A DNA stretch of 64,000 nucleotides from Pseudolactococcus piscium (GTDB lineage Bacteria > Bacillota > Bacilli > Lactobacillales > Streptococcaceae), in contig NZ_JXJW01000003.1 in assembly GCF_002441695.1 (NCBI RefSeq), positions 1 through 64,000 of the forward strand. Reading direction: 5' to 3'. Positions 7,222-10,788 of this stretch are shown here, piece after piece. Numbering within the stretch: the first letter of the stretch is position 1; every line of letters begins with the position of its first letter. The notes beneath the pieces are model-generated. The model saw only the letters and a list, made by a program, of their open reading frames with translations. It was not told where the DNA came from and did not search any database. The position numbers were made by a program, and so were the translations under genes.

Positions 7222-7310
7222 GTACCAACTGTTTCTGAGCTTTGCGACAGCCAAACGTCTGGCACGGAAACAGCAATAAAAGTAGGATTGAGCCCAGCTC
7301 AATCAATAAA
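7222..7310 (+). promoter_or_regulatory. Structured rpsO mRNA leader, possible S15 autoregulatory element
   Basis: The roughly 100-nt leader holds a long-range pairing CTGTTTC / GAAACAG (about 7230-7236 with 7266-7272) enclosing a smaller hairpin, and a second hairpin ATTGAGC / GCTCAAT just before the AAGGAG ribosome site. Ribosomal protein S15 is known to bind its own leader in several bacteria with different structures. The autoregulatory role here is inferred from position and folding only. Confidence 0.5.
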
Positions 7311-7322
7311 AAGGAGAAACAC

Positions 7323-7592
7323 ATGGCAATCTCAAAAGAGAAAAAAACTGAAATCATCAAGCAATATGCACGTACTGAAGGGGACACTGGTTCACCAGAA
7401 GTGCAAATCGCTGTATTGACTTGGGAAATTAACCACCTTAATGACCATATTCAAGACCATAAAAAAGACCACGCTACTTACCGTGGTTTGATGAAAAAAA
7501 TTGGTCACCGTCGTAATTTACTTGCTTACTTACGTCAAAAAGATATTCCACGTTACCGTGAATTAATCTCTTCACTTGGTCTTCGTCGTTAA
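7323..7592 (+). CDS. rpsO: 30S ribosomal protein S15
   Basis: The 89-aa protein matches S15 throughout, including GDTGSPEVQ near residue 23 and the conserved [11 protein letters not shown] and RRNLLAYL stretches that contact 16S rRNA helix 22. The ATG at 7323 follows a strong AAAAGGAG ribosome site. It is monocistronic, with its own promoter and a terminator directly after the stop. Confidence 0.98.
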
Positions 7593-7782: not shown

Positions 7783-8145
7783 ATGGGACAGATTCAAATT
7801 ACAAATATGCGTTTTTATACATACAATGGTGTTTTTTCTGAAGAAAAGACACTTGGACAACAAATTTCAATAGATGCAGTTGTACATTATGATATTGAGA
7901 ACAAAGTAAAAGATGATGACTTAACAACGACAATTTCCTATGCAACTATTTATGAGATTATTCGTGAATTTGTGACACATCACAATTTTAATCTCATGGA
8001 GTCAGTAGCTAACGGTGCGCTTAATCTGCTACTAGAAAAGTTACCGATGGCTGAAAAAATCCAATTATCAGTTAAAAAATATTCGGTGCCTATTGCAGGG
8101 GTCTTTGATGATATCATCATTACGGTGGAGGGATATAATGCCTAA
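7783..8145 (+). CDS. folB: Dihydroneopterin aldolase
   Basis: FolB converts 7,8-dihydroneopterin to 6-hydroxymethyl-dihydropterin plus glycolaldehyde. The 120-aa length is typical. Family features are the N-terminal RFYTYNGVFSEE stretch, the ISYATIYEII helix, ESVANGALNLLL and the C-terminal VKKYSVPIAGVFDDIIITV. AGAGGAG at 7771-7777 fixes the start. The preceding 155 bp hold a possible TGATAAACT extended -10 and a partly self-complementary leader, but no recognised folate riboswitch. It is first in the folate cluster and overlaps folK by 8 nt. Confidence 0.95.
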   Translation: MGQIQITNMRFYTYNGVFSEEKTLGQQISIDAVVHYDIENKVKDDDLTTTISYATIYEIIREFVTHHNFNLMESVANGALNLLLEKLPMAEKIQLSVKKYSVPIAGVFDDIIITVEGYNA

Positions 8146-8638
8146 GGTTTATTTAAGCATTGGGACGAACATTGGTGATAAACTGGCTAATCTACAAACA
8201 GCAGTTGATAAACTAGCAGCGCTTTATGCTATTTCAGCTGTGTCCAAAGTTTATGAAACACAACCAGTTGGTGAAGTTGTACAAGATGATTTCTATAATA
8301 TCGCCATTAGCTTAACCGTTCCTGATGGGGTAGCACCAACGACCTTACTAGCGCAAACTCAGCAAATAGAAAAAGAGATGAAGCGTGTTAAAACGATTCA
8401 TTGGGGCCCTCGGACGATTGATTTAGATATTCTGAGGTTTGGCGATGTGACTTATCAAACAGAAGCATTAACAATCCCGCATATAGAAATGGCAAATCGC
8501 CGTTTTGTTTTACAGCCGCTACTAGAAGCAGCGCAGATGATTCGTGATAGCCTGGTGATCAAGCAGACAGAACAATTGCTAGAGGAGACAAGTGATCAGA
8601 ACTGGGTTAGACCGATAGCCGATACGATTCAGTATTGA
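8138..8638 (+). CDS. folK: 2-amino-4-hydroxy-6-hydroxymethyldihydropteridine diphosphokinase
   Basis: FolK pyrophosphorylates 6-hydroxymethyl-dihydropterin with ATP. The 166-aa protein has the N-terminal SIGTNIGDK, the KVYETQPVG motif, and WGPRTIDLDIL with the two metal-binding aspartates. ATG 8138 lies inside the folB end and is preceded by GGAGGG. In L. lactis this domain is fused to FolE; here it stands alone and 150 bp of non-coding DNA follow. Confidence 0.95.
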   Translation: MPKVYLSIGTNIGDKLANLQTAVDKLAALYAISAVSKVYETQPVGEVVQDDFYNIAISLTVPDGVAPTTLLAQTQQIEKEMKRVKTIHWGPRTIDLDILRFGDVTYQTEALTIPHIEMANRRFVLQPLLEAAQMIRDSLVIKQTEQLLEETSDQNWVRPIADTIQY

Positions 8639-8788: not shown

Positions 8789-9364
8789 ATGAAAAAAAAC
8801 TACCAAGAAAACAAACAGCATATTGAAAGTGGCACGAAGAAATTGTTACAGGCAATTGGTGATGATCCAACGCGTGATGGCTTGCTTGAAACACCAGAGC
8901 GGGTATTCAAAGCTTATTCAGAAATTTTTGCATCAACTGGTGAAACACAATTTGATAATTACAAGCTATTTCCAACAGACCAGGATGCGGATATGGTAAT
9001 CGTGGGTGACATCCCCTTTTATGCCATGTGTGAGCACCATCTCCTCCCATTTTTTGGCACTGTAAGTGTCGGTTATGTGCCAGATGGTGAGATTATTGGC
9101 TTGAGTAAAATTCCTAGATTAGTCGATTGGGCGGCTCGTAGACCAAGTGTACAAGAAAATCTAACGGCCTTGATTTGCTCGGAGATGCAACGCATTGTTC
9201 ATCCAAAAGGGATTGCAGTGCATGTCCACTCTCGTCATATGTGCATGGAAATGCGTGGCATTAATAGACCTGGGACCTTTACGACAACGAGTCTTTATAA
9301 AGGGGACTTAAAAACGGATGCTTTTTTGCGTCAAGAATTTATGATGAAAGTGAGTGATAAGTGA
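8789..9364 (+). CDS. folE: GTP cyclohydrolase I (zinc type)
   Basis: FolE makes dihydroneopterin triphosphate from GTP, the first committed step of folate synthesis. The 191-aa protein has DPTRDGLLETPERV, the zinc and active-site motif MCEHHLLPF, the GLSKIPRLVDW segment, and SRHMCMEMRGI with the second zinc Cys. The ribosome site is weak (AGAAAG). The TGA stop overlaps the ATG of the next gene (TGATG), so the pyrophosphatase-FolP fusion is translationally coupled to it. Confidence 0.95.
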   Translation: MKKNYQENKQHIESGTKKLLQAIGDDPTRDGLLETPERVFKAYSEIFASTGETQFDNYKLFPTDQDADMVIVGDIPFYAMCEHHLLPFFGTVSVGYVPDGEIIGLSKIPRLVDWAARRPSVQENLTALICSEMQRIVHPKGIAVHVHSRHMCMEMRGINRPGTFTTTSLYKGDLKTDAFLRQEFMMKVSDK

Positions 9365-10788
9365 TGTTACCGCATCGGATTATTTTTGCGTCTAATAACT
9401 CGGCTAAGACAGCGGATGTCGCTAAATTCTTTCACCTGTATGGCGTCTCACTTATTAACTATCGTGAGTTAATCGCAGAGCAAACATTTCCTGAGGAAAC
9501 CTTGGATGATCAAGCAGGTAACGCCAAACATAAAGCCTTGTTTATTCACGAGTTATTACCAGATGAGTATGTGCTAGGTGATGATTCTGGCATGTTCTTA
9601 TCCGCTTTTCCAGAGCGCTTTGGTCTAACGACTGCTCGGGAGTTTAAGGCTTTAAGTTTGCAATCAGTTGAGGCAGAAAATCAGTACGTCCTAGACTTAT
9701 ATCAGGCAGGGGATGACCGTAGCGCCTATCTTTCAGCGGTTTTTGTCCTTATCACACCGAAAAAGAAGCTGCTAATCACTGAGGGACGAGGTGGTGTCGC
9801 GATTGCTTCAAAGGCCAGTGGTAGCTTTGGTGCTGGTTTAGATACAATTTTTCTGACCGAGTCTGGAAAAACAATCGCTGATCTGACAGTTGTACAGCAA
9901 TTGACTTATCAGCACCGAGGTCGGGCAACAAAACAGCTACTTGCGCTATTACAAGATGATGTGGTGAGTTGGCAAGCCAATGGGCATCAAATTCAGCAAG
10001 AAACAGGTATCATCTATGGGATATTAAACGTTAGTCCAGAGTCATTTTATAATGGAGAACATGTTGGTGGTCTAGCAGAATCTTTGCTGCAAGCTTCACA
10101 ACAATTAGCAGAAGGCGCGGATATCATCGAGGTTGGTGGTCAATCAACGAGGCCAGGATTTTCAGAGTTGACAGTTGCAGATGAGATCAATCGAATTGTC
10201 CCTGTTATCCAAGGGATAAAAGCAGCACACCCCTATGCAGTTGTTGCTGTTGATACTTACAAGTATGATGTCATGGTCGCAGCAATTGAAGCTGGTGCAG
10301 ATATTATAAATGATATTAACGGATTTACAGATGACGCTCGAAAACTTGAGTTGCTAAGTCAAACTGAAGTTGGTTTGCTAAGTATGTTTAATCCGCGTGA
10401 TCAGGAGCTATCCGATGATATTTCTAGGGATATGATTAGCTGGTTTTCTAAAAATCTAACTGCTATTGAACAGGCTGGTATCGCACGGCAACGGATAGCC
10501 CTTGATCCGGGAATTGGCTATTCTAAGAACTCGGATGTCAGGCAAGATTTGGCAATGATGAATACAGTAGGCAAGTTAAAAGTCTTTGGCAGGCCCATTA
10601 TGACAGCTGTTTCAAATAAAGGCTGGGCCAAGTACCTGTTTGACCTACCTAAAGACGAACGTGCTAGCTTGTCACTTGTGGCCGCAACAGAAATGTATCG
10701 GAGAGGGGCTAAGCTTCTTCGGGTTCATGATGTCAAATCAGCGCGTCAACTCGTAAGTTTTGTTGCACTATTAGAAAACGCACACTGA
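9364..10788 (+). CDS. folP: Fusion of HAM1/RdgB-like NTP pyrophosphatase with dihydropteroate synthase
   Basis: Two enzymes share this 474-aa chain. Residues 1 to about 200 are HAM1/RdgB-like: FASNNSAKTADV, GDDSGMFLSAF near 72, GSFGAGLDTIF near 155 and HRGRATKQL near 184 correspond to the family's nucleotide and metal motifs, though they diverge (the usual SARY is TAREF). From about 218 on it is DHPS: YGILNVSPESF, ADIIEVGGQSTRPG near 255, VAVDTYKYDV, LDPGIGYSKN and LLRVHDV near 454. The SRK loop reads SNK. DHPS joins the pterin diphosphate to pABA. The HAM1 part may be the missing enzyme that removes pyrophosphate from dihydroneopterin triphosphate; that is inference. ATG 9364 is coupled to folE; GTG 9361 is an alternative start. 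Confidence 0.88.
   Translation: MLPHRIIFASNNSAKTADVAKFFHLYGVSLINYRELIAEQTFPEETLDDQAGNAKHKALFIHELLPDEYVLGDDSGMFLSAFPERFGLTTAREFKALSLQSVEAENQYVLDLYQAGDDRSAYLSAVFVLITPKKKLLITEGRGGVAIASKASGSFGAGLDTIFLTESGKTIADLTVVQQLTYQHRGRATKQLLALLQDDVVSWQANGHQIQQETGIIYGILNVSPESFYNGEHVGGLAESLLQASQQLAEGADIIEVGGQSTRPGFSELTVADEINRIVPVIQGIKAAHPYAVVAVDTYKYDVMVAAIEAGADIINDINGFTDDARKLELLSQTEVGLLSMFNPRDQELSDDISRDMISWFSKNLTAIEQAGIARQRIALDPGIGYSKNSDVRQDLAMMNTVGKLKVFGRPIMTAVSNKGWAKYLFDLPKDERASLSLVAATEMYRRGAKLLRVHDVKSARQLVSFVALLENAH

Follow-up and report, generated by a model that had tools for sequence, protein, structure and literature searches.

A HAM1-FolP fusion in the folate operon of Pseudolactococcus piscium and its putative role in place of the Nudix enzyme FolQ

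The gene that follows folE in the folate operon of Pseudolactococcus piscium encodes a HAM1/ITPase-like domain and a dihydropteroate synthase (DHPS, FolP) on a single polypeptide. Analysis of this gene in a stretch of 64,000 nucleotides (hereafter the window, to which positions without a locus label refer), together with comparison across related genomes, indicated that it is probably a bifunctional folate enzyme whose HAM1 domain replaces FolQ on dihydroneopterin triphosphate. The N-terminal domain would cut 7,8-dihydroneopterin triphosphate, the product of FolE, at its alpha-beta bond to give dihydroneopterin monophosphate and PPi, while the C-terminal DHPS domain joins the pterin pyrophosphate to pABA. 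As the chemistry of an ITPase (NTP to NMP and PPi) would here be applied to a pterin derived from GTP, the domain would be a non-orthologous replacement of FolQ. The reaction and pathway step proposed are the same as those of FolQ (YlgG) of L. lactis, which is likewise encoded beside folP; however, that enzyme is a Nudix protein, whereas the window domain belongs to the unrelated HAM1 fold.

The gene for the dihydroneopterin triphosphate pyrophosphatase step is missing in most genomes (PMC1971073). Rossi et al. (2011; PMC3257725) proposed that a non-Nudix purine NTP pyrophosphatase encoded in the fol clusters of the lactobacilli L. plantarum, L. reuteri and L. fermentum acts on dihydroneopterin triphosphate. 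In L. plantarum WCFS1, xtp2 has been listed as a folate gene and overexpressed along with the cluster (PMC3014895), and the pyrophosphatase gene, of the XTP/dITP type, has been named folQ (PMC10339729). The idea of HAM1 acting as FolQ has therefore already been put forward for the unfused gene of lactobacilli, while the fusion and where it came from, the extent of the exclusion between HAM1 and FolQ, the analysis of the base pocket and the copies without FolP are new. In the open-access literature, which misses most subscription papers, neither an assay of a HAM1 protein on dihydroneopterin triphosphate nor a report of a HAM1-FolP fusion was found.

The fusion gene, its operon and its origin

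The fusion gene is a single open frame with its ATG start at 9364 and its TGA stop at 10786-10788, and it is the last gene in the order folB-folK-folE-(HAM1-folP) (Table 1). The first-pass annotation had described a HAM1-FolP fusion at 9364-10788 that is coupled to folE by TGATG, and both parts of this description were confirmed: one frame of 474 amino acids contains both Pfam domains over their cut-offs, and the folE stop codon TGA (9362-9364) and the ATG of the fusion, as read from the sequence, have an A in common. The fusion was found in 11 of the 12 genomes of the genus, with 73-100% identity; the member without it is only 70% complete, and the 11 near-complete genomes all carry it. Named relatives with the fusion are Lactococcus raffinolactis, Lactococcus plantarum and Lactococcus laudensis, while outside the genus it was seen in none of the relatives searched. 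A fusion by chance or by assembly error was ruled out, since 11 genomes share it. In the closest pair, the dN and dS values were, respectively, 0.014 and 0.14 for the HAM1 domain, and 0.015 and 0.20 for the FolP domain. With dN at about one-tenth of dS, both domains are under purifying selection and are presumably functional.

Upstream of folB, no Rfam match to a folate riboswitch was obtained. At 7283-7379 on the plus strand, upstream of rpsO, the sequence weakly resembles the ribosomal S15 leader, with 23.6 bits where the gathering score is 39.5; this may represent a diverged leader or chance.

Table 1. Features of the fusion gene and of the folate operon in the window
Feature	Position	Strand	Evidence or remark
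folB, dihydroneopterin aldolase	7783..8145	+	PF02152, 103 bits
folK, HPPK	8138..8638	+	PF01288, 126 bits
folE, GTP cyclohydrolase I	8789..9364	+	PF01227, 217.9 bits
HAM1-FolP fusion gene	9364..10788	+	474 aa; open frame and two-domain Pfam match
HAM1/ITPase-like domain, residues 6-194	9379..9945	+	PF01725 (Ham1p_like), 95 bits; cut-off 22.5
Phosphate-binding motif SNNSAK, residues 10-15 (canonical [ST]xNxxK)	9391..9408	+	N12 and K15 invariant in all groups
E45, at the position of the invariant canonical glutamate	9496..9498	+	100% in all groups
D73-D74 of DDSG, catalytic/metal aspartates	9580..9585	+	100% in folate-cluster copies
G158-L159-D160, altered base-pocket motif (canonical FGYDP)	9835..9843	+	aromatics at 157 and 159 replaced; D160 kept
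H184-R185 of HRGRA (canonical SHR)	9913..9918	+	R185 100% in all groups
Junction of the HAM1 C-terminus with the final ~20 residues of the N-terminal extension of FolP	9949..10017	+	Leuconostoc alignment
Dihydropteroate synthase domain, residues 219-455	10018..10728	+	PF00809 (Pterin_bind), 183 bits; cut-off 25.5

The DHPS domain scored 224.7 bits against TIGR01496 (cut-off 162.6), and among solved structures it is best matched by the DHPS of B. anthracis (1tws; E 1.5e-44). Its fold showed a TM score of 0.89 (by target length) to 6day. The model of the whole protein had a mean pLDDT of 86, and a Foldseek search with this full-length model returned DHPS only, among the matches listed. The AlphaFold model of the HAM1 domain alone reached a pLDDT of 95.5 and matched S. 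aureus Ham1 (4bnq; Z 23.1, 2.5 Å over 189 residues) and E. coli RdgB-ITP (2q16; Z 22.6). A second folate activity placed N-terminal to DHPS is also found in the bifunctional FolK-FolP enzymes (PDB 3mcm, 6jwq), in which, however, the partner is HPPK and not a HAM1 domain.

Alignment with the separate proteins of Leuconostoc lactis revealed that residues 4-193 of the fusion correspond to residues 3-192 of HAM1 (51%), and residues 203-467 to residues 77-344 of FolP (59%). The HAM1 frame continues straight into the DHPS barrel, and the fusion coincides with the loss of about 76 residues of the N-terminal extension of FolP. An extension of approximately 75-100 residues was observed at the FolP N-terminus both in Lactococcus-type clusters and in those of Leuconostoc and Lactobacillus (L024 1474-2547, L047 6545-7651, lactobacilli); most of it is missing in the window fusion.

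In Leuconostoc and lactobacilli, the genes follow the order folB-folK-folE-folC2-HAM1-folP, in which HAM1 and folP either adjoin or overlap. In the FolE and FolP trees, the Lactococcus group falls inside the group of Leuconostoc and Lactobacillaceae, with supports of 99 and 100, and is set away from the Lactococcus-type clusters with the order folKE-folP-Nudix. The operon, HAM1 gene included, was thus acquired by horizontal transfer from a Leuconostoc-like donor; vertical inheritance within Lactococcus was ruled out, as FolE and FolP group with Leuconostoc. The HAM1 tree of 38 rows separated the folate-cluster HAM1s from canonical RdgB (support 100/99) and placed the window copy in a clade with the xtp genes of L. 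plantarum and Leuconostoc (99/96), where it grouped with Leuconostoc (99/98), a grouping that was retained in a larger quick tree.

Compared with the gene order of Leuconostoc and lactobacilli, the window lineage has lost folC2 from the operon as well as the approximately 76 FolP residues. A FolC gene scoring above its cut-off sits elsewhere in the genome. The fusion arose in the ancestor of the Lactococcus group, after the gain of the Leuconostoc-like operon, through a deletion that took out the end of the HAM1 gene together with those FolP residues. The window copy belongs to the same HAM1 subfamily and occupies the same operon position as Xtp2 of Lactiplantibacillus plantarum (folB-folK-folE-folC2-xtp-folP; PMC3014895, PMC3257725); unlike Xtp2, which is encoded by a separate gene, it is fused to FolP, with no intervening folC2 and without the first ~76 residues of FolP.

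Catalytic residues and base pocket of the HAM1 domain

The active site was compared in an alignment of 119 proteins, 28 of which are canonical rows. The residues N12, K15, E45, D74 and R185 were kept in every group, and D73 is lacking only in a few canonical rows; alignment of the motifs identified E44 of human ITPA as the counterpart of E45. A degenerate HAM1 domain was ruled out by the intact catalytic residues and the low dN/dS.

The base pocket, in turn, has been altered. F157, Y159, K179 and N180 were each present in 100% of the canonical rows, and P161 in 96%, while in the folate-cluster copies these five residues are mostly replaced. The window domain has AGLDT and QQLTYQHR where canonical enzymes have FGYDP and EKNxxSHR, and F157, Y159, K179 and N180 are absent from it. 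The first-pass annotation had called the motifs off-consensus; its example, TAREF for SARY, represents a small part of the difference, the larger changes being in GFGYDP and EKNxISHR. The window domain shares with the ITP/XTP pyrophosphatase RdgB/HAM1 (ITPA) its fold, its catalytic residues and, as predicted, the release of PPi, but differs from it in belonging to a separate clade, in scoring below the equivalog cut-off, in its rebuilt pocket and in its fusion to DHPS.

The invariant R185 is the counterpart of Arg178 in human ITPase, a residue in contact with the 6-keto group and N7 of the purine (PMC5075207). Since the 4-keto group and N5 of the pterin come from the same part of GTP, this contact could, by analogy, be reused on them, while the aromatic clamp around the base is rebuilt. 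Judging from the alignment, conserved catalysis combined with an altered pocket is what a new substrate would require.

HAM1 and FolQ in the genome and across Lactobacillales

The genome is 99.97% complete and contains ten Nudix genes. No FolQ orthologue was found in the whole genome: the best match covers 31 residues at E 8e-4, whereas the true FolQs of related genera are 47-57% identical along their entire length. Two findings had been named in advance as arguing against a pyrophosphatase role of the HAM1 domain, namely a FolQ orthologue elsewhere in the genome, combined with ITPase-only activity of the domain, and missing catalytic metal-binding residues; no such orthologue is present in this nearly complete genome and, in the alignment, no catalytic residue is missing.

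A sample of 251 Lactobacillaceae genomes included 89 with DHPS, all of which also have FolE. Folate-type HAM1 was present in 66 of these 89 genomes, in 62 cases within 5 kb of folP, and FolQ in 16, always within 5 kb of folP. The two enzymes did not occur together in any of the 89, nor in any of the 251 genomes, and the mutual exclusion that had been suggested for checking was thus recovered at this scale. The corresponding Fisher value of 1.4e-12 ignores shared ancestry and overstates the evidence, because the operons travel as whole lineages, as seen in the FolE and FolP trees, and the counts are not independent. Both solutions occur within one genus (g39), with HAM1 in G088 and FolQ in G203, G320, G343, G388, G438 and G454. 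In an order-wide sample of 198 genomes, those with a HAM1 operon and the five with FolQ showed no overlap, and HAM1 was also found beside folE and folP in families f2, f3 and f8. As judged from gene content, folate-type HAM1 appears to stand in for FolQ in fol clusters.

Seven of the 89 genomes scored with neither enzyme at the thresholds used, and three of them proved to have a sub-threshold HAM1 in the cluster. In the other four folate-synthesizing genomes (G452, G332, G406 and G327), the cluster contains neither enzyme. Their fol clusters (L166, L169, L171 and L172, respectively) are complete, without a HAM1 or FolQ homologue, and are candidates for a third enzyme at the pyrophosphatase step.

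The genome also encodes a separate canonical RdgB (G000:C13), which scored 172 bits against TIGR00042 (equivalog cut-off 145.35), while the fused domain scored 70.4 bits, below this cut-off; values of 69 and 78 were obtained, respectively, for the Leuconostoc and L. plantarum copies, and 199 for the RdgB of G056 used as a control. With a canonical RdgB present, the fused domain is not required as the only ITPase of the cell. A plain house-cleaning function on ITP, XTP and dITP, with the domain merely happening to lie in the operon, joined to FolP through a chance deletion and taking no part in the pathway, is unlikely for HAM1: the RdgB fold, the conserved catalytic residues, the HR of the SHR motif and the persistence of relatives in genomes without folE and folP would all agree with such a role, but the canonical enzyme is already there, the fused domain falls under the curated RdgB cut-off with an altered base pocket, and HAM1 swaps with FolQ across operons.

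HAM1 copies without FolP and the proposed function

A HAM1 of the folate clade occurs in approximately 29 Lactobacillaceae genomes in which FolP gave no match, and in nearly all of these FolE gave none either. This count leaves out G430, G354 and G376, whose copies the tree groups with canonical RdgB, and G309, which has a broken folP. Around ten of the copies adjoin folC2, and the others stand alone. FolQ without DHPS, by comparison, was found in none of the 251 Lactobacillaceae genomes. The persistence of HAM1 without folP and folE indicates that the family is not strictly bound to folate synthesis and has, or had, another use. The fol cluster of G309 (G309:C67, L177) has folP as two fragments in different frames with HAM1 intact, possibly as a result of a recent loss of folate synthesis.

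The main catalytic residues are kept in all the copies without FolP (29/29), while the pocket has drifted: H184 was found in 11 of 29, against 32 of 34 copies in Lactobacillaceae fol clusters, and D160 in 23 of 29, against 34 of 34. At the loci concerned (L146-L165, L173-L175 and L180-L184; G425, G297, G391, G182 and others), HR is often replaced by HDR, HQR or APR. This drift suggests that the substrate changed once the capacity to make folate had been lost, and the same copies would fit equally well a broader original substrate range. The latter would agree with a pyrophosphatase of different or broader specificity, acting on another pterin or on a non-canonical nucleotide in folate handling, with dihydroneopterin triphosphate as at most one of its substrates. 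The catalytic residues kept in copies mostly without FolE, and the ten or so that stay beside folC2, favour this reading, which we nevertheless consider improbable, as the pocket drifts in the copies without FolP and not in those of the fol clusters.

The role proposed for the fused domain as dihydroneopterin triphosphate pyrophosphatase is the function of NudB of E. coli, a Nudix enzyme unrelated in sequence to HAM1. One Nudix gene of the genome, at G000:C6:49685-50041 (L012 1432-1998, minus strand), encodes a protein of 188 amino acids that is the only Nudix protein of the genome with NudB as the best NCBIfam match (52.6 bits, E 3.4e-14). It is very unlikely that this protein, or another Nudix encoded elsewhere, handles dihydroneopterin triphosphate while HAM1 does something else, since its score is half of the curated cut-off of 103, its gene lies beside a ribosomal protein gene and away from the fol operon, and among solved structures it is closest to the uncharacterised Nudix 3son.

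The first-pass proposal of HAM1 as the missing pyrophosphatase thus gained from the lack of FolQ, the exclusion and the conserved residues, and is qualified by its publication in 2011, by the relatives without FolP and by the NudB-like Nudix. The replacement of FolQ by the HAM1 domain remains the preferred reading. Extended to the family, the comparisons lean towards the folate-operon HAM1 proteins forming, beside the Nudix enzymes, a second family of pyrophosphatases for dihydroneopterin triphosphate, which occurs in several families of Lactobacillales and is fused to DHPS in one Lactococcus group. If this is true, two non-consecutive folate steps that both release PPi would lie on one polypeptide, and the fusion may bring some benefit. 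The fusion also provides a tied test system, in which inactivating one domain of the single gene is expected to stop folate synthesis at a point upstream of the other domain. If the HAM1 domain is this enzyme, the assignment would reach many of the lactic acid bacteria with which food is enriched in folate, and a fold of nucleotide house-cleaning would be shown to have turned to a pterin substrate.
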